A stretch of 64,000 nt of DNA. It comes from Mesorhizobium sp. M2A.F.Ca.ET.046.03.2.1 (GTDB lineage: Bacteria; Pseudomonadota; Alphaproteobacteria; Rhizobiales; Rhizobiaceae). Shown in pieces: positions 13,907 to 23,598 of this stretch (the stretch's first letter is position 1; each line of letters starts with the position of its first letter). The notes below the pieces were generated by a model. The model was not told where the DNA came from, searched no databases, and saw nothing but the letters and a program-made list of their open reading frames with translations. Made by a program: the position numbers and the translations under genes. The DNA is taken from the NCBI RefSeq assembly GCF_003952425.1, contig NZ_CP034449.1:2294001-2358000 (forward strand), given 5' to 3'.

Positions 13907-14905
13907 TCACGCCGGCTCATCCATCAGATGCAGGCTATCGCGGTTGAAGGTGAGCGTCACCGCCTCGCCTTCGGCCGGCAGCGCCGTTCCCGCCGGCACC
14001 ACCGCGTGCAGCCTCAACCCCTCGGCATCGAGCGCCAGCCTTGTCGTGGCGCCGAGATAGTTGGTGCCGACCAGGCGCGCGGCGACGCCGTCGCCACTGG
14101 TCGCGCTTGAAACGCGGATGGATTCCGGGCGCAGGCTCCCCCAGCGATGCTGGCCGGAATAGCGCTGAACGAAATCCGGCGGCAGCACGTTGGACGAGCC
14201 GACGAAATCGGCGACGAAGCGCGTGTTCGGCCGCTGATAGATATCTTCCGGCGTGCCGACCTGCATGATCCTGCCGTCGTTGAAGACGGCGACGCGGTCG
14301 GCCATGGACAGCGCTTCGCCCTGGTCGTGGGTGACGAAGACGAAGGTGATGCCGAGCGCCTTCTGCAGCGACTTCAATTCCTCCTGCATGTTCTCGCGCA
14401 GCTTGAGGTCGAGCGCGCCGAGCGGCTCGTCGAGCAACAGCACCTTGGGCTGGTTGACCAGCGCCCGGGCGAGCGCGACGCGCTGGCGCTGGCCGCCGGA
14501 AAGCTGGCCTGGGCGGCGCGCGCCATAGCCCGGCAGGCGCACCAGCGACAGCGCTTCCTCCGCAGCCTTCAGCCGCTCGGCCTTGCCGACGCCCTTGACC
14601 ATCAGGCCGTAGGCGACGTTGTCGAGCACGTTGAGATGCGGGAACAGCGCATAGTCCTGGAAGACGGTGTTGACGTTGCGACGATAGGGCGGAACGCCTT
14701 CGGCGCGCTCGCCGAAGATGGAGATCGAGCCAGCCGTCGGCTGCTCGAAACCGGCGATCAGCCGTAGACACGTCGTCTTGCCGGAACCGGACGGCCCGAG
14801 CATGGCGAAAAACTCGCCCGGCGCGATCTCCAGATCGACCGCATCGACCGCGCGCACGCTGCCGAAATGGCGTGAGACTTGTTTGAAGGAAACGGCAGAG
14901 GTCAT
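13907..14905 (-). CDS. polyamine-type ABC transporter ATP-binding protein (PotA-like)
   Basis: A 332-residue ATPase with Walker A GPSGSGKTT (near residue 37), signature LSGGQRQRVALARAL, Walker B VLLLDEPLGALD and the H-loop THDQGEA. The C-terminal third is a TOBE-type regulatory domain typical of the PotA/MalK group. It energises the two adjacent permeases and works with the periplasmic binding protein encoded upstream at 16240. The length is slightly below E. coli PotA. Substrate assignment to polyamines rests on PatD and on the binding protein. Confidence 0.92.
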   Translation of the reverse strand: MTSAVSFKQVSRHFGSVRAVDAVDLEIAPGEFFAMLGPSGSGKTTCLRLIAGFEQPTAGSISIFGERAEGVPPYRRNVNTVFQDYALFPHLNVLDNVAYGLMVKGVGKAERLKAAEEALSLVRLPGYGARRPGQLSGGQRQRVALARALVNQPKVLLLDEPLGALDLKLRENMQEELKSLQKALGITFVFVTHDQGEALSMADRVAVFNDGRIMQVGTPEDIYQRPNTRFVADFVGSSNVLPPDFVQRYSGQHRWGSLRPESIRVSSATSGDGVAARLVGTNYLGATTRLALDAEGLRLHAVVPAGTALPAEGEAVTLTFNRDSLHLMDEPA

Positions 14906-14958
14906 GGGCCCCGTCAGTTCAGTTCCGGTTGAACGAAGGCGAGTTCGCGCGGCGCTCT

Positions 14959-14997
14959 ACCTCCCCCTTCGATGGGGGAGGTCGCGGCGAAGCCGCG
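14959..14997. repeat. tandem hairpins between binding-protein and ATPase genes
   Basis: ACCTCCCCC/GGGGGAGGT (14959-14967 and 14974-14982) is followed directly by a CGCGGC/GCCGCG stem (14983-14997). A less perfect partner lies to about 15070. Placed just after the binding-protein gene, these stems could stabilise its mRNA and reduce expression of the genes behind it. Confidence 0.6.
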
Positions 14998-15082
14998 GGT
15001 GGGGGTGACAGCGCGAACCATCAGACAGCCCCACCCTGACGCTCAAGCGTCGACCCGCCCCACAAGGGGAGGGTAAAGAGCG

Positions 15083-16240
15083 TTACCGTCCGCCGATGAC
15101 GCCGATATAGTCCGACACCCAGCGGTAATAGGGCACGCACTGGTCGTTCTGGCTGGCGCATTTCGAAACCGGCGTCTTCCAGAACTTGATCTTGTCGAAA
15201 TTGTCGTAGCCGTTGGTCTTGCAGCCTTCGTCGGTCAAAAGCTCATTGCCCTTGCAGGCGGCGGGCACGACCGGCAGCGAGCCGAACCAGGCCGAGACGT
15301 CGCCCTGGACCTTGGGCGACAGGGAATGCTCGAGCCACATATAGGCGCAGTTCGGATGGGCGGCGTCGGCTTCCATCATGGTGGTGTCGGCCCAGCCGGT
15401 GACGCCTTCCTCCGGCACGGTCGAGGCGACCGGTTTCTTGGCGGCGACCAGCGTGTTGACCTGATAGGGCCAGGAGCCGGAAGCGACCACGCCTTCGTTC
15501 TGGAAGTCGTCGACCTGGATCGCGGCATCGTGCCAATAGCGGCCGACCAGCGTGCGCTGCGTGCGCAACAGGTCGAGCGCCGCCTTGTACTGGTCTTCGT
15601 TCAGCTCGTATGGATCCTTGATGCCGAGCTCAGGCTTGTGGAACTTCAGATAGTTGGCGGCGTCCGCGATGTGGATCGGGCCGTCATAGGCCTGGACGCT
15701 GCCCTTGTTCGACTTGCCGTCGGGCAGCTTCATTTCCTCGAAGACGACGTTCCAGCTCTTGGGCGCTTCCTTGAAGACATCGGTGTTGTACATCAGGATG
15801 TTCGGGCCCCACTGGTAGGGAACGCCGTAATGCACCTTGTCGACGGTGAACCAGGGCGCGTCCTTCAGGCGGTCGTCGACGGTCTTCCAACTCGGGATCA
15901 GATCGGTGTTGATCGGCTGCACGCGCTTGCCGGCCACGAGGCGCAGCGAGGCATCGCCCGAAGCGGTGACCAGATCGAAGCCGCCCTCGTTCATCAGCGA
16001 GACCATCTCGTCGGAGGTGTTGGCGGTCTTGACGTTAACCTTGCAGCCGCTTTCCTTCTCGAAAGCCGTCACCCAGTCATAACCCTTGTCGGTCTCGCCG
16101 CGCTCGATATAGCCCGGCCAGGCAACGATGTTTAGCTCGCCCTCGCCCTTGCCGAGTTCCTTGACCTGGGCCATGGCCTGAGCGGAAAAAGTCAGCGCGA
16201 CAGTCAGCGCCGTGCACGACTTCAGGAATGCATTCATCAT
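15083..16240 (-). CDS. periplasmic polyamine-type binding protein (PotD/PotF-like)
   Basis: A 385-residue extracellular solute-binding protein. I chose the ATG at 16240 because TGGGAGATCG lies directly upstream and a signal peptide follows (MMNAFLKSCTALTVALTFSAQAMA). The mature domain has the PotD-like opening GELNIVAWPGYIERG and the internal YQWGPNILMYNTDVF. Four cysteines in the C-terminal third may form disulfides. It is the first gene of the operon leading through ATPase and permeases to patD. The exact polyamine cannot be read from sequence. Confidence 0.88.
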   Translation of the reverse strand: MMNAFLKSCTALTVALTFSAQAMAQVKELGKGEGELNIVAWPGYIERGETDKGYDWVTAFEKESGCKVNVKTANTSDEMVSLMNEGGFDLVTASGDASLRLVAGKRVQPINTDLIPSWKTVDDRLKDAPWFTVDKVHYGVPYQWGPNILMYNTDVFKEAPKSWNVVFEEMKLPDGKSNKGSVQAYDGPIHIADAANYLKFHKPELGIKDPYELNEDQYKAALDLLRTQRTLVGRYWHDAAIQVDDFQNEGVVASGSWPYQVNTLVAAKKPVASTVPEEGVTGWADTTMMEADAAHPNCAYMWLEHSLSPKVQGDVSAWFGSLPVVPAACKGNELLTDEGCKTNGYDNFDKIKFWKTPVSKCASQNDQCVPYYRWVSDYIGVIGGR

Positions 16241-16258
16241 CGATCTCCCATTTTGGCC

Positions 16259-16298
16259 CATGACCCCGAAACCAGTTCGGCTTTCGGAAAGGACCATG
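16259..16298. repeat. CATGA-type palindromic repeat, copy 1
   Basis: CATGACCCCGAAA at 16259 and TTTCGGAAAGGACCATG ending at 16298 form an imperfect dyad. A longer relative occurs at 50162-50204 (CATGATCCCGAAA ... TTTCGGGAAAGATCATG). It lies upstream of the binding-protein gene, so it may also overlap its promoter region. Confidence 0.6.
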
Positions 16299-16452
16299 CG
16301 CAAACTACAAGGGTCGGAGCTTCATGCTCCGACGGCAGCGCTCTCAAGGCGCGGCTTTGTTCCCTGAGCGAAAAGTGCTGTGAAAAATCCGGTTTCGCAA
16401 ATTCATTTATCAGAAAGCCGATATCGGTTTTTCCGATAGTTATTTTGGACGC

Positions 16453-17463: not shown

Positions 17464-18228
17464 TCAGGCCGCCGCAATGGTCAGCCGCGCCCCTGCCCGG
17501 CTCAGCGCGGCGGCTATGTCGGGCGGCGGCGGCTGGTCGGTGGCAAGCTCGGAAAAGCCGTCGAAGCCGCACACCCTGACCAGCCCCTGGCGGCCGAACT
17601 TGGTATGGTCGGTGACGACCAGCGAGCGCTGGCCGCGCGACAGCACCATGCGGGCGAACTCCGCCTCCTCCAGCTCATAGTCGGTGAGGCCGGCTTCAGC
17701 ATCGACGGCGCCGATCGAGATCACCGCATGATCGACCGAAAAGCGGCTGACAAACTCGATCGCCGAAATGCCGAAAGCAGCGCCTGAATCGCTGCGCAGC
17801 TCGCCGCCGGCCATATAGACCTTGTTGCCGTTCACCGTCGCCAGCGTGCGGGCAATGTCGGAGGAATTGGTGACCACCGTCAACCGGCGATGGCCGAGCA
17901 GCTCGCGCGCCAGGAAGGATGTGGTCGTGCCGGTGTCGAGCATGATCGCCTCGCCATCGCGGATGGTGGCTGCGACCATCCTGGCGATCAGGCACTTGGC
18001 TTCGGCATTCTCGCGCATGCGCCGCTCGAACGGCGCCTCGCCCACCATCGAGGCAAGGCCGACGGCGCCGTGCATCTTCAGCACCGACCCGTCATCGGCG
18101 AGCGGCTTGACGTCGCGCCGCACCGTTTCCTGCGAGACGCCGAGTCGTTCGGCAAGGCTGGCTATGCTGATCGTGCCCTCCTCGCCGAGGAGCCGCAGGA
18201 TTTCGCCATGCCGTTTCGAGTGGATCAT
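17464..18228 (-). CDS. DeoR-family transcriptional regulator
   Basis: A 254-residue DeoR/GlpR-type repressor. The N-terminal HTH (SIASLAERLGVSQETVRRDV, residues 20-39) is followed by the sugar-phosphate-sensing DeoRC domain with DTGTTTSFLA near residue 97. Members usually bind a phosphorylated effector. The gene diverges from the leader RNA and phosphotransferase gene at 18264-19503, so the product of that kinase is a plausible effector. This regulatory link is inferred from position only. Confidence 0.87.
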   Translation of the reverse strand: MIHSKRHGEILRLLGEEGTISIASLAERLGVSQETVRRDVKPLADDGSVLKMHGAVGLASMVGEAPFERRMRENAEAKCLIARMVAATIRDGEAIMLDTGTTTSFLARELLGHRRLTVVTNSSDIARTLATVNGNKVYMAGGELRSDSGAAFGISAIEFVSRFSVDHAVISIGAVDAEAGLTDYELEEAEFARMVLSRGQRSLVVTDHTKFGRQGLVRVCGFDGFSELATDQPPPPDIAAALSRAGARLTIAAA

Positions 18229-18263
18229 GTGGAATGCCCGAGATTTTGACCGAATTTAAGGCT

Positions 18264-18294
18264 TTGACAACGCTTTGAAAGGAGTTGCTTATAT
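18264..18294 (+). promoter_or_regulatory. predicted sigma-70-type promoter of the leader RNA
   Basis: TTGACA at 18264-18269 and TTATAT at 18289-18294 with a 19-base spacer. Transcription would start near 18302 and run through the structured leader into the kinase gene. The site sits 36 bases from the start of the divergent DeoR gene, a usual place for control by that repressor. Confidence 0.45.
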
Positions 18295-18301
18295 TTTCGG
18301 G

Positions 18302-18571
18302 CAAAACACCCAAAAAAAGTCACAGCTTTTGATTGACAGCTCTGCCACCTGGGCATGAGAGTGGTTGCAAGTCACAAGGGCTCGGAACTGCTAAGGGAGG
18401 GTGATGGCAGAGCCGCAACTTAGTGACCAGTTCATCTGGAACCAGCCAGATTTGCGCTTTTATCGAATCCGCGGGGGCGGATGCCGGGATCCTGAACCTG
18501 GCCAAGGGGCTCGTCGGTGCGGTGCGGGATACCGATCCTGGCGTCTCGCACCGACGAGGCTTTTCTATTTT
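18302..18571 (+). ncRNA. structured leader RNA or small RNA of unknown class
   Basis: A region of about 270 bases before the kinase gene at 18619 with several perfect stems: GCTCTGCCA/TGGCAGAGC (18339-18347 with 18405-18413, enclosing 57 bases), ATCTGG/CCAGAT (18434-18451), ATCCGC/GCGGAT with a GGGG loop (18467-18482), and a terminator hairpin at 18510-18558. It does not match the TPP, SAM, glycine or cobalamin riboswitch cores that I can recall. A short frame from 18404 has a good AAGGGAGG site, so translation of a leader peptide is an alternative. Attenuation or an independent small RNA are both possible. Confidence 0.5.
18510..18571 (+). terminator. intrinsic terminator inside the kinase leader
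   Basis: A perfect 12-bp stem CTCGTCGGTGCG/CGCACCGACGAG (18510-18521 and 18547-18558) with a 25-base loop is followed by gcttttctatttt. It ends 48 bases before the kinase start codon. It is much stronger than a chance hairpin and would stop transcription unless overcome. Confidence 0.8.
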
Positions 18572-18618
18572 GTCCCATCGTCGTTTTCCGTGGGACCGGT
18601 TGAGGCCGGAGCGAAGCC

Positions 18619-19503
18619 GTGAGCGCCGAAGACCGCATCCGCGCCCTGCCGTGCTGGAACGGCAGTATCGAGATCGAGCCGCTGCCGGGCGGCCTCAGCA
18701 ACGCCAATTTTGTCGTCACGGATGCCGCGGGGCGGCATGTCGTGCGCTTCGGCCAGGACTTTCCGTTCCACCACGTCTTTCGCGAGCGCGAGGTGATGAC
18801 GGCGCGGGCCGCGCATGCTGCTGGATTCGCGCCGGCCGTGCATTATGCCGAGCCCGGCATCCTGGTGACGGCGTTTCTCGGGGCAAAGACCTTTCTCGCC
18901 GAGGATGTGCGGGCCAATCTTGGCCGCGTGGCGGCGCTGCTGCGCGGCTTCCATCGCGAGATGCCGAGCCATGTCTCCGGCGCCGGCTTCATGTTCTGGG
19001 TGTTCCACGTCATCCGCGACTATGCGCGCACGCTTGACGAAGGCGGCAGCCGCAAGACGGATCAGTTGCCGCGCTATCTAGCGCTGGCCGACGAGCTCGA
19101 GCGGGCGCAAAAACTGCTGCCGATCGTCTTCGGCCACAACGATCTTTTGCCGGCCAATATCCTGGACGACGGCAAGCGGCTGTGGCTAATCGATTTCGAA
19201 TATGCCGGCTTCAACACGGCGATGTTCGATCTCGCGGGCGCCGCCTCCAATGCCGGCCTGAGCGACGATGAATCCTTCGCCTTCCTGACCGCCTATTTCA
19301 TGAAGGAGCCGGACAGCGAGATCCGCCGCTCGCACGCCGCCATGCAATGCGCCTCGCTGCTGCGCGAGGCGATGTGGAGCATGGTCTCCGAGCTTTATCT
19401 CGACGCGCCCGGCATCGACTATGTCGCCTATACCGAGGAAAACCTCGTCCGGCTCGACGCCGCGCTGGAGAACTACCGGACGAAATACGGGACCAAGCCA
19501 TGA
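18619..19503 (+). CDS. choline/ethanolamine-kinase-like phosphotransferase
   Basis: A 294-residue member of the LicA/aminoglycoside phosphotransferase fold. The nucleotide lobe has GGLSNANFVV near residue 22. The catalytic loop HNDLLPANIL has H173 and D175, and the metal-binding Asp is in IDFEYAG. The start is a GTG. The stop overlaps the start of the downstream flavoprotein (ATGA), so the two are coupled. Pairing with a dimethylglycine/sarcosine-type dehydrogenase suggests an N-methylated amino alcohol or related substrate rather than an antibiotic. A paralogue lies at 22699. The substrate is unproven. Confidence 0.82.
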   Translation: MSAEDRIRALPCWNGSIEIEPLPGGLSNANFVVTDAAGRHVVRFGQDFPFHHVFREREVMTARAAHAAGFAPAVHYAEPGILVTAFLGAKTFLAEDVRANLGRVAALLRGFHREMPSHVSGAGFMFWVFHVIRDYARTLDEGGSRKTDQLPRYLALADELERAQKLLPIVFGHNDLLPANILDDGKRLWLIDFEYAGFNTAMFDLAGAASNAGLSDDESFAFLTAYFMKEPDSEIRRSHAAMQCASLLREAMWSMVSELYLDAPGIDYVAYTEENLVRLDAALENYRTKYGTKP

Positions 19504-21953
19504 CCTTGCCCAGCCATGCCGAAATCGTCGTCATCGGCGGCGGCATCATCGGCTGTTCCACCGCCTATCATCTGGCGCGCGACCACAAGGCCGATGTGGT
19601 GCTGCTCGAGCAGGGCAAGCTGACCTCGGGCTCGACCTGGCACGCCGCCGGCCTGGTCGGGCAGTTGCGCTCGTCGGCCTCGATCACGCGCGTGCTCAAA
19701 TATTCGGTCGAGCTCTACAAGGGCCTCGAGGCCGAGACCGGCCTGGCGACCGGCTGGAAGATGACCGGCTGCCTGAGGCTCGCGACCAATGCCGACCGCT
19801 GGACCGAGTTCAAGCGGCTGGCAACGACGGCCAAAAGCTTCGGCATGGACATGCAGCTTCTGTCGCCGGCGGAAGTGAAGCGCATGTGGCCGCTGATGGA
19901 AACGGGCGACCTGGTCGGCGCCTCGTGGCTGCCAACCGACGGGCAGGCAAGCCCCTCCGACATCGCCCAGTCGCTCGCCAAGGGCGCGCGAATGCATGGC
20001 GCGAAACTGTTCGAGGACCTGCGCGTCACCGGCTTTACGATGAAGGACGGCCGCATCACGGCGGTGAAGACTTCCAAGGGCGACATCGCCTGCGACAAGG
20101 TGGTGAACTGCGCCGGGCAGTGGGCAAGGCAGGTCGGCGCGATGGCCGGCATCAACGTGCCGCTGCAGCCGGTCAAGCATCAGTATATCATCACCGAGAG
20201 GATCGAAGGGCTGGCGAACGACGCGCCGACGATCCGCGACCCCGACCGCCGCACCTATTTCAAGGAGGAGGTCGGCGGACTGGTGATGGGCGGCTATGAG
20301 CCCAACCCGCAGGCCTGGGCAACCGGGCTTCCCGGCGGCGACGTGCCCAACGACTGGGAGTTCCGCCTGTTCGACGACGATTACGATCATTTCGAACAGC
20401 ATATGAGCCAGGCAATCGAGCGCGTGCCGGCGCTCGCCCATGTCGGCGTCAAACAGATGATCAACGGGCCGGAAAGCTTCACGCCGGACGGCAACTTCAT
20501 CCTCGGCGTGGCGCCGGAATGCGCCAATATGTTCGTCGGCGCGGGCTTCAACGCCTTCGGCATCGCGTCGGGCGGCGGCGCCGGCTGGGTGCTGGCGCAA
20601 TGGGTGGTCGACGGCGAGGCGCCGCTCGATTTGTGGGTGGTCGACATCAGACGTTTCTCCAGCCTGCACCGCGACCGCGACTGGGTCCGCGACCGCACGC
20701 TGGAGGCCTATGGCAAGCATTACACGATCGGTTTCCCGCACGAAGAGTATCTCTCGGGACGGCCACGCATCGTCTCGCCGCTCTATGAGCGGCTGAAGAC
20801 GCATCGCGCGGTGTTCGGCTCCAAGCTTGGCTGGGAGCGGCCGAACTGGTTTGCGCCCGACGGCACAGCCGCCGAGGACGTCTATTCGATGGGCCGCCAG
20901 AACTGGTTCGGCCCGGTCGGCGACGAGCACCGGCATGTGCGCGAGAAGGTCGGCCTTTTCGACCAATCCTCCTTTGCCAAATACGAGCTGACCGGAAGCG
21001 ACGCGCTGAAGGCGCTCGACTGGATCTGCGCCAACGACGTCAACAAGCCGGTCGGACGGCTGACCTACACGCAGCTTCTCAACACGCGCGGCGGCATCGA
21101 GGCCGACCTCACCGTGTCGCGGCTCGGCGAGGAGCGGTTCTACATCGTCACCGGCACCGGCTTCCGCACGCATGACCTGTCCTGGATAAGCGACCATATC
21201 GGCTCCGGCCTCGACGCCAGGCTGACCGACGTCACGGAGGAGTACGGCACGCTCTCGCTGATGGGACCGCGCGCCCGCGACGTGCTGTCGGCGGTGACCG
21301 ATGCCGACGTTTCGAACGCCGCCTTCCCCTTCGGCCATGCCCGCGAGATCGCAATCGCCGGGCACACCGTGAAGGCGCTGCGCATCACCTATGTCGGCGA
21401 GCTCGGCTGGGAGCTGCATGTGCCGATCGCCGCCACCGGCGAGGTTTTTGATGTACTGATGGCGGCGGGCAAGGCACACGGCATTCGCCCGGTCGGCTAC
21501 CGGGCGCTGGAGTCGCTGCGACTGGAAAAAGGTTATCGCGCCTGGGGTTCCGACATCACGCCGAACGACACGCCGCTGGAGGCGGGGCTTGGCTGGGCGG
21601 TGAAGCTTCGCAAGAACACCGACTTCGTCGGACGCAAGGCGCTGGAGAACGCGACCGGCAAGCCGCCGACGAAACGCTTTGCCGGCTTCACGGTGGATGA
21701 GCCAGAGGTCGTGCTGGTCGGGCGGGAGACGATCCTGCGCAATGGCGAAGCTGTCGGCTACCTCACCAGCGGCGGCTACGGCTACACGGTCGAGAAGAAC
21801 ATCGGCTACGGCTATGTGCGCAATGCCGACGGCGTCGGCGACGAGTTCCTCGCCTCCGGCGACTACGAGCTGGTGGTGGCGATGGAACGCACGCCGGCAA
21901 AGATCCATCTCGAGGCGATGTACGACCCGGCCGGGAAGAGGGTAAAGGCTTGA
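19500..21953 (+). CDS. dimethylglycine/sarcosine-dehydrogenase-like flavoprotein with GcvT domain
   Basis: An 817-residue fusion. Residues 1-400 are a DAO-type FAD domain (IVVIGGGIIGCSTAYHLA). His48 in GSTWHAAG matches the covalent FAD histidine of dimethylglycine and sarcosine dehydrogenases. The C-terminal half is an aminomethyltransferase (GcvT) domain that transfers one-carbon units to tetrahydrofolate. The ATG at 19500 overlaps the kinase stop; an open frame upstream to 19347 lies inside the kinase gene and is rejected. Known relatives demethylate N-methyl glycine derivatives. The operon with a kinase suggests a modified substrate. Confidence 0.88.
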   Translation: MTLPSHAEIVVIGGGIIGCSTAYHLARDHKADVVLLEQGKLTSGSTWHAAGLVGQLRSSASITRVLKYSVELYKGLEAETGLATGWKMTGCLRLATNADRWTEFKRLATTAKSFGMDMQLLSPAEVKRMWPLMETGDLVGASWLPTDGQASPSDIAQSLAKGARMHGAKLFEDLRVTGFTMKDGRITAVKTSKGDIACDKVVNCAGQWARQVGAMAGINVPLQPVKHQYIITERIEGLANDAPTIRDPDRRTYFKEEVGGLVMGGYEPNPQAWATGLPGGDVPNDWEFRLFDDDYDHFEQHMSQAIERVPALAHVGVKQMINGPESFTPDGNFILGVAPECANMFVGAGFNAFGIASGGGAGWVLAQWVVDGEAPLDLWVVDIRRFSSLHRDRDWVRDRTLEAYGKHYTIGFPHEEYLSGRPRIVSPLYERLKTHRAVFGSKLGWERPNWFAPDGTAAEDVYSMGRQNWFGPVGDEHRHVREKVGLFDQSSFAKYELTGSDALKALDWICANDVNKPVGRLTYTQLLNTRGGIEADLTVSRLGEERFYIVTGTGFRTHDLSWISDHIGSGLDARLTDVTEEYGTLSLMGPRARDVLSAVTDADVSNAAFPFGHAREIAIAGHTVKALRITYVGELGWELHVPIAATGEVFDVLMAAGKAHGIRPVGYRALESLRLEKGYRAWGSDITPNDTPLEAGLGWAVKLRKNTDFVGRKALENATGKPPTKRFAGFTVDEPEVVLVGRETILRNGEAVGYLTSGGYGYTVEKNIGYGYVRNADGVGDEFLASGDYELVVAMERTPAKIHLEAMYDPAGKRVKA

Positions 21954-22698: not shown

Positions 22699-23598
22699 AT
22701 GACCGACGAGCTGCGCGCTGCGCTGGCGGCCATTCCGGTGCTGGCGAGCTATGATGGGCCGCTGGAGCGGCTCGGCGGTCTGACCAACAGGGTCTACAGG
22801 GCGGGTGACGTGTGCCTGCGCATCCCCGGCAAGGGCACCGAGGAGTACATCAACCGCGCCAACGAGGCGGTGGCGGCGCGTGAGGCGGCCAGCGCCGGCG
22901 TCAGCCCGCTGGTGCTTTATGCCGATCCGGCGTCCGGTGTGATGGCGACGCGCTTCATCGCCGGCGCCGAGACGATGTCGCCCGAAAAATTCAAGGCGCG
23001 GCCGGGCAGCCCGGCGCGGGCTGGCGAGGCCTTCCGAAAGCTCCACTCTTCGGGTGCGGTGTTTCCCTTCCGGTTCGAGCTGTTCGCGATGATCGACGAC
23101 TATCTCAAGGTCCTGTCGACCAAGGACGTGGCGCTGCCGGCCGGCTATCACGACGTGGTGCGCGAGGCAGGCGCGGTGCGCGCGGCGCTTGCCGCGCAGG
23201 CCATCCCGCTTGCCGCCTGCCATTGCGATCCGCTGTGCGAGAACTTCCTCGATACGGGCGAGCGGATGTGGATCGTCGACTGGGAATATTCCGGCATGAA
23301 CGATCCGCTATGGGACCTCGGCGACCTCTCGGTCGAGGGCAGGTTCGATGCCGCGCAGGACGAGGAACTGATGCGCGCTTATTTCGGCGGCGAGGCGCGG
23401 CCGGCCGAGCGGGGCCGCGTCGTCATCTACAAGGCGATGTGCGACCTTTTGTGGACGCTGTGGGGCCTGATCCAGCTCGCCAACGACAATCCGGCCGACG
23501 ATTTCCGCGCCTATGCCGACGGCCGCTTCGCCCGCTGCAAGGCGCTGATGGAGACGGCGGAGTTTTCGCGGCACCTCGCCGCCGTGCGCCTGGACTAG
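22699..23598 (+). CDS. second choline/ethanolamine-kinase-like phosphotransferase
   Basis: A 299-residue LicA-type kinase, distinct from but related in fold to the gene at 18619. GGLTNRVYRAGD forms the nucleotide lobe, the catalytic loop CHCDPLCENFL has H175 and D177, and VDWEYSGMNDPLWDLGD contains the metal-binding Asp. This second set of motifs is nearer to true choline kinases than the first copy. It diverges from a methyltransferase with a 100-base gap that should hold both promoters. It may phosphorylate choline or ethanolamine for phospholipid head groups. The exact substrate is not proven. Confidence 0.82.
   Translation: MTDELRAALAAIPVLASYDGPLERLGGLTNRVYRAGDVCLRIPGKGTEEYINRANEAVAAREAASAGVSPLVLYADPASGVMATRFIAGAETMSPEKFKARPGSPARAGEAFRKLHSSGAVFPFRFELFAMIDDYLKVLSTKDVALPAGYHDVVREAGAVRAALAAQAIPLAACHCDPLCENFLDTGERMWIVDWEYSGMNDPLWDLGDLSVEGRFDAAQDEELMRAYFGGEARPAERGRVVIYKAMCDLLWTLWGLIQLANDNPADDFRAYADGRFARCKALMETAEFSRHLAAVRLD

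Follow-up and report, generated by a model that had tools for sequence, protein, structure and literature searches.

A conserved, structured leader before a kinase-demethylase operon of Mesorhizobium carries the relic of a proV-type ATPase gene start

Upstream of a choline/ethanolamine-kinase-like gene in a Mesorhizobium genome (7.37 Mb on one contig) lies a segment that folds like a regulatory RNA and matches no classified family, and the question is what this segment is and why it has been kept. A first-pass annotation of the 64,000-nucleotide stretch analysed here (the window) had described an unclassified structured leader with a strong terminator, laid out like a riboswitch or attenuator, before a kinase-demethylase operon. 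The kinase start at 18619, ahead of the demethylase gene, was confirmed by the sequence and by Pfam. The comparison supported a leader that is conserved, structured and unclassified and that carries a strong hairpin like that of a terminator; its interpretation changed. Within the genus, BLAST found the leader, at least in part, in 129 of 146 genomes. The features are collected in Table 1. A second choline-kinase-like gene (22699-23598, + strand; Pfam) lies downstream of the operon, and the - strand of 13907-16303, also nearby, carries a polyamine-type ABC ATPase look-alike, named by eye, and a solute-binding protein (SBP) gene assigned by Pfam.

Table 1. Coordinates of the features of the leader and its neighbouring genes in the window.
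Feature	Position	Strand	Remarks
DeoR-family regulator gene	17464..18228	-	Divergent; Pfam DeoRC and HTH_DeoR
Upstream promoter element or possible operator, CGGGCAAAACACCCAAAAAAAGTCACAGC...	18296..18332	+	Conserved; 3.35 steps per site over 18296-18338
-35 element TTGACA	18333..18338	+	80/80 rows, zero steps
-10-like element, TGAnAT type	18356..18361	+	17-nt spacer in 80/80 rows
Possible 5'UTR hairpin, GGCT/AGCC and CUGCUA/UGGCAG	18379..18414	+	Ribosome-binding site in loop, start codon in 3' arm
Leader ORF, 72 codons	18404..18622	+	TGA overlaps kinase GTG; peptide not conserved
Relic of proV-type ABC ATPase 5' end	18404..18571	+	About codons 1-57 with indels; leader HMM, covariance model R1
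Hairpin A, ATCCGC-GGGG-GCGGAT	18467..18482	+	15 consecutive sites unchanged in 80 rows
Hairpin B, GCCGGG...CCTGGC	18483..18502	+	5.35 steps per site
Hairpin C, 13-bp stem, terminator-like	18510..18558	+	13/13 pairs in 76/80 rows
T-rich tail of hairpin C	18559..18571	+	Not conserved; 11.1 steps per site
Choline/ethanolamine-kinase-like (APH fold) gene	18619..19503	+	Pfam
FAD oxidoreductase and GcvT (dimethylglycine/sarcosine-dehydrogenase-like) gene	19501..21953	+	Pfam

The leader was aligned between the window and 79 further loci (80 rows). Only the best 80 of 477 relatives found by the kinase search were retained, which biases the alignment towards near relatives, and the rows represent related species; the named relatives are Mesorhizobium. 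Locus L086 was left out, its upstream DNA being too short, and L001-L036, many but not all of which come from the same genomes as the named loci, were not included. Changes were counted as parsimony steps on a tree of the kinase and the demethylase (the latter, DMGDH, present in 78/80 rows), on which fourfold sites averaged 8.23 steps (n=258). Two smaller alignments, A2 and A3, comprised 42 and 40 of the rows, respectively. Genes in other genomes were named from homology and ORF reading rather than annotation.

The promoter was examined against this neutral rate. The pair TTGACA (18264-18269) and TTATAT (18289-18294), which had been proposed as the promoter, is present in the window with a 19-nt spacer (19-20 nt in 78/80 rows); as a promoter it is not conserved, since TTGACA occurs at that position in 10/80 rows and the sites change at the neutral rate (8.9 steps per site vs. 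8.2 at fourfold sites). A far better conserved promoter lies just downstream, within 18296-18361, and the spacer between its TTGACA and its TGAnAT box varies freely (14 steps per site, 13 sites scored). The supposed 9-bp stem GCTCTGCCA/TGGCAGAGC does form nine pairs in the window, and its 5' arm falls in that spacer; it was rejected as a conserved element, with 8 or 9 pairs in only 16/80 rows, the window included. Consensus folding of 18296-18421 by RNAalifold gave only three pairs, in which two-sided changes were absent, and the promoter block had a mean folding z of -0.6, which indicates no RNA structure. On this comparison, the block 18296-18361 is promoter DNA and not an aptamer, and transcription probably starts near 18368 rather than near 18300. 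A start further downstream, which had been named as a result that would speak against the leader, is implied in part, though not one as far down as 18571. Sigma-70-type promoters have 16-18 nt between TTGACA and a TATAAT-like element; here TTGACA and the 17-nt distance are kept in every row, yet the -10 element is TGAnAT-like, and a simple promoter scan listed no site on the + strand. The -10 box has G at its second position in 80/80 rows, unlike the usual TATAAT box; an activator or an unusual sigma factor may be involved.

The origin of the sequence behind this promoter emerged from more distant relatives. An HMM of the leader matched the start of an ABC ATPase gene in all six intact-gene loci (E 4.7e-12 to 3.4e-7, values that refer to the small set of loci searched with nhmmer), with the promoter upstream matched as separate hits. 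Two of the six matches start exactly at the ATPase ATG and all extend to approximately codon 57; G453 alone continues to approximately codon 79, with lower support. Further, R1, a covariance model of 18460-18566 whose E-values are rough by the tool's own note, matched three genomes of another genus (E 1.3e-10 to 1.3e-7), there within the first part of the coding sequence of an ABC ATPase gene that adjoins a binding-protein gene. The ATPase of one of these genomes (G015) scored above the NCBI cut-off for the proV subfamily (TIGR01186; 330.7 vs. 326.6 bits), and the binding protein was ProX-like, below cut-off. Relatives of the first kinase with 31-35% identity were also seen near the transporter genes of these three other-genus genomes. 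Within the genus, the more distant relative G454 retains the complete arrangement, with DeoR next to an intact SBP-ATPase-permease-kinase-demethylase series, and G453 keeps the order ATPase, permease, kinase; read by eye, the permease stop overlaps the kinase start in both. The SBP, ATPase and permease genes are absent from this operon in the window.

The promoter belongs to the same ancestry. An HMM of 18296-18361 matched 29 of 33 intact ATPase loci (E ≤ 0.05; 30 loci from the 51 genomes of the family that have a close match to the ATPase, and three more), placed in these related genomes 1.1-1.45 kb before the intact ATPase gene, and it precedes the binding-protein gene in the intact loci whose genes were read. 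A divergent DeoR-like gene adjoins the promoter in two intact operons as well. In genome G086 (L165; L127/L191), the transporter genes and the kinase are on separate contigs, each behind a match to the promoter block, an arrangement that suggests a small regulon sharing it. As judged from these homologies, the leader from ATG 18404 onwards is well supported as the start of a proV-type (betaine/choline) ATPase gene, truncated and frame-shifted: the homology of a pseudogene is found together with its loss of frame. The idea that the relic extends to the permease end was abandoned because the HMM alignment continued into ATPase codons (one locus only).

Outside the genus, beyond the three strong R1 matches, there were 15 weak ones (E 0.004 to 0.08); among three inspected by eye, L127 is an ATPase start and L126 and L128 show no resemblance. 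BLAST hits L007-L009 in other genera (394 family genomes) lie inside long frames of unrelated genes and were discarded as chance, and a search of 72,556 plasmid records gave no match. In 17 Mesorhizobium genomes BLAST found no match to the leader; 14 of these had a kinase match, one of them only a 33% paralogue. Among the other 13, the permease lies just upstream of the kinase in three, and L176 holds a relic that has diverged (E 1.1e-28). In four, the stretch read contains no relic and no permease, and five carry the same promoter and kinase with no relic found between them, so that the relic appears dispensable in some backgrounds.

We then asked whether the relic is still read by ribosomes. 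The ATG at 18404 with its good ribosome-binding site, as previously noted, was confirmed, and the aligned codon is ATG, GTG or TTG in 73/80 rows; the seven rows that have lost it, both M. ciceri rows among them, were excluded from the frame test (n=73). The leader frame is open to the kinase in 67/73 rows, whereas about 30 were expected by shuffling, and early stops were found in 6/73, compared with 26 and 54 rows for the other frames and with 42.6 of 73 expected after shuffling of the variable segments (here, as for row folding z and hairpin C pairing, shuffles kept base content and not dinucleotides). By parsimony, six early-stop changes arose in the leader frame vs. 15 and 17 in the others. 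Nevertheless, the frames of hairpin A, hairpin C and the kinase relative to the leader start shifted no fewer than 14, 13 and 18 times, respectively, and in the 32 rows that share the window's frame there was no clear third-position excess (2.05, 2.45 and 2.6 steps at codon positions 1, 2 and 3 of the leader middle; 3.58, 3.53 and 4.0 in the tail). These results led us to reject a leader that encodes a conserved protein, three frames being in use without clear codon-position bias. Because early stops are few despite the frame changes and the lack of clear position bias, it is openness up to the kinase that appears to be selected, and not the peptide. The leader-peptide alternative put forward earlier therefore holds in part: conservation indicates that the 18404 frame is translated, but the conserved bases are read in three frames, and neither a conserved peptide nor regulatory codons were found, as a classical leader peptide would have.

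The leader stop ends 4 nt inside the kinase gene in 28/73 rows (the window and 27 others) and between -15 and +11 nt of the kinase start in 55/73; it precedes the kinase by 25-33 nt in 10/73 and runs past the kinase start in 2/73. In L091 (M. kowhaii), the leader frame continues in frame into the kinase, a possible N-terminal extension. Ribosome-site matches of 5-6 of 6 were found at the leader start in 51/73 rows and at the kinase start in 19/80. According to PMC10666635, serial genes are most often spaced by an overlap of 4 nt or 1 nt, well ahead of any other distance, and pairs of this kind are tightly coupled; gaps of about 20 nt are stated there to nearly abolish coupling, which argues against it in the ten rows whose leader ends 25-33 nt short of the kinase. 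The possible 5'UTR hairpin averages 5.46 of 6 pairs in its 6-bp stem (at most 4.14 in slid controls), with 4 of 4 GGCT/AGCC pairs in 60/80 rows; it was not predicted by RNAalifold, and its folding z is below -1.5 in only 36/80.

The two small hairpins and the terminator-like hairpin that had been described are all present. The fold of 18298-18575 was better than that of dinucleotide shuffles (z -2.9; 1/200 as good). Hairpin A, scored over 18468-18483, changes at 0.31 steps per site and the arms of hairpin C at 0.38 and 0.69, compared to 3.7 in the loop of C, 8.2 in the leader middle and 10.1 in the leader tail. Relative to fourfold sites, hairpins A and C thus change more slowly by a factor of approximately 12 to 27, and this sequence comparison shows them to be under purifying selection. 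Hairpin C forms 12-13 of its 13 pairs in 79/80 rows, the remaining row being unscored (gap), and its folding z averages -5.0, below -1.5 in 80/80; the mean is -2.7 for A and B together (below -1.5 in 78/80) and -1.5 for A alone. The compensatory changes for which an alignment had been proposed were slight: two-sided changes occurred in 2/29 predicted pairs of the 3' block in the 42-row alignment, one of them in hairpin C and none in hairpin A. The strong conservation of the terminator-like hairpin does not extend to its T-rich tail. At least five T in 8 nt follow hairpin C in 57/80 rows and fewer in 23/80, and therefore termination cannot be general; a simple terminator scan, which allowed short loops only, found one terminator vs. 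1.2 expected by chance. In L080 (M. huakuii NBRC 15243), approximately 90-100 nt are inserted between hairpin C and the kinase.

Hairpin C was also looked for in the intact genes. Only 7/33 intact ATPase genes contained a strong version of it, with a folding energy of -28 kcal/mol or better. At these loci (L129, L130 and L187-L191, from three genera), it folds better than synonymous recodings of the coding sequence (z -1.5 to -4.7), which may point to an RNA element within a transporter gene. L207 is a weaker case (12/13 pairs, z -1.65), the other 25 intact genes show no folding excess (z -1.25 to 2.11), and z averages -0.05 in 27 paralogues. No hairpin A was apparent in those intact ATPase genes that were read by eye.

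In order to reconcile these results, we favour, with a probability of roughly 60%, a reading in which an old transporter-operon promoter and an ATPase-gene relic were joined to the kinase and now act as a translated leader. It builds on the promoter block, the ATPase homology, the selection on hairpins A and C and the openness of the frame, each demonstrated by comparison of the loci. The ancestral operon would have encoded a betaine/choline-type transporter, the kinase and the demethylase; loss of the SBP, ATPase and permease genes would have brought the old promoter to the kinase and left the first ~57 (perhaps ~80) ATPase codons, shortened and frame-shifted. Ribosomes would load at the strong site before 18404, traverse the leader and reinitiate at the kinase, the TGA/GTG overlap serving as a relay in place of the coupling once given by the lost permease. 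When the leader goes untranslated, hairpins A-C would fold, and the folded C, with its U-run in most species, would stop or slow transcription or shield the RNA; the 5'UTR hairpin, by hiding the start codon, may set how often this happens. That ribosomes keep terminator hairpins from forming is described in part of PMC5021804. Hairpin C may be either a ribosome-sensitive attenuator or a stabiliser.

The alternatives overlap with one another, and the nearest of them overlaps with the favoured reading too. It takes hairpins A and C as an mRNA stabiliser or processing element rather than an attenuator, with leader translation merely coupling the kinase; the hairpins might be a 5' shield against RNases, or left over from a time when they set the SBP : ATPase ratio. 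We consider this unlikely on balance, although it deserves serious weight: hairpin C is retained where the T-run has been lost, and its excess of folding over recodings recurs at seven intact loci in three genera. Against it stand the 6-7 T in 8 nt behind hairpin C in 33/80 rows, the window included, and the excess is modest in places, L207 reaching a similar z with weaker folding. Less probable still is a free-standing, trans-acting sRNA of ~200 nt ending at hairpin C, with the kinase reached by leak-through. Such an RNA would have its own promoter, the 13-bp terminator-like hairpin with a U-run in most rows and the invariant 15-nt motif; yet neither the open frame to the kinase nor the stop/start overlap is expected of a free sRNA, and the U-run is weak in 23/80 rows. 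Unannotated sRNA candidates between divergent genes of M. huakuii 7653R (MH_s6, s7, s10, s13 and s26) are listed in PMC5596092.

Since hairpin A shows no covariation, it could also be a DNA-binding site, and together with its invariant neighbours it might be an operator, an inverted repeat lying in the leader by chance. The perfect, nearly invariant 16-nt dyad, present in the genome as one exact copy and two more with one mismatch, would suit this explanation, to which we give little credence: the dyad lies ~100 nt downstream of the probable start, the adjoining hairpin C has C-G in place of a U-A pair in 3/42 rows, and the diverged relic L176 has, by eye, a different strong hairpin near that place. 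As for the riboswitch originally envisaged, sensing choline, betaine or one-carbon units, its position before a demethylase operon and the conserved hairpins would fit, but we regard it as very improbable. The Rfam 15 covariance models gave no match in the window, and on 18200-18700 only three chance-level hits (best E 1) that did not reach the gathering threshold; the supposed aptamer block is, on the evidence above, promoter DNA without consensus structure, the hairpins lie within former coding sequence, and no upstream segment complementary to the terminator arm was seen by eye.

The favoured reading, a translated leader made from a gene relic, resembles several known systems and departs from each. 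The leader has the homology of proV-family ATPase genes (TIGR01186) to their 5' end, start codon included, but is truncated and frame-shifted, with selection on hairpins and openness instead of protein. It shares with translational coupling by termination-reinitiation the same short stop/start overlap; here the upstream frame specifies no conserved protein, being a relic that is read in three frames among species. In attenuators of the trp/his type, a short open frame followed by a terminator-like hairpin precedes the operon. The layout here is the same, without a conserved peptide and, by eye, with neither an antiterminator nor a noticeable series of regulatory codons. Jose, Gardner and Barquist (2019) reportedly described the exaptation of non-functional sequence into bacterial RNAs. 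Here, likewise, an RNA element would have been recruited from sequence with another former use; in contrast, this one is a cis leader inside an operon and its donor gene is still visible in relatives. In those parts of the literature that the search returned, we found no operon leader described as the relic or pseudogene of a transporter gene. Tentatively, and at somewhat less than even odds, we propose an operon leader of a new type: a deletion relic of a transporter gene, translated and indifferent to its peptide, kept across most of the genus, whose only tasks would be to pass ribosomes on to the following start codon and to keep the hairpins unfolded or allow them to form, so that expression would report ribosome traffic. 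Hairpin C would then be inherited from the dead gene, and hairpin A newly made within it.

Operons constantly lose genes, and where a gene has no good ribosome site itself, it relies on its upstream neighbour. The present locus suggests how that dependence may be met: the upstream genes were lost, the stub of one was kept as a translation relay, and its RNA structure was frozen by selection. With intact, relic-bearing and relic-free relatives within one genus, each step is open to comparison. The locus also carries a warning: a strongly conserved 'structured leader' can be a gene relic and promoter DNA instead of a riboswitch, and selection on a conserved frame can act on its openness and not on its peptide.
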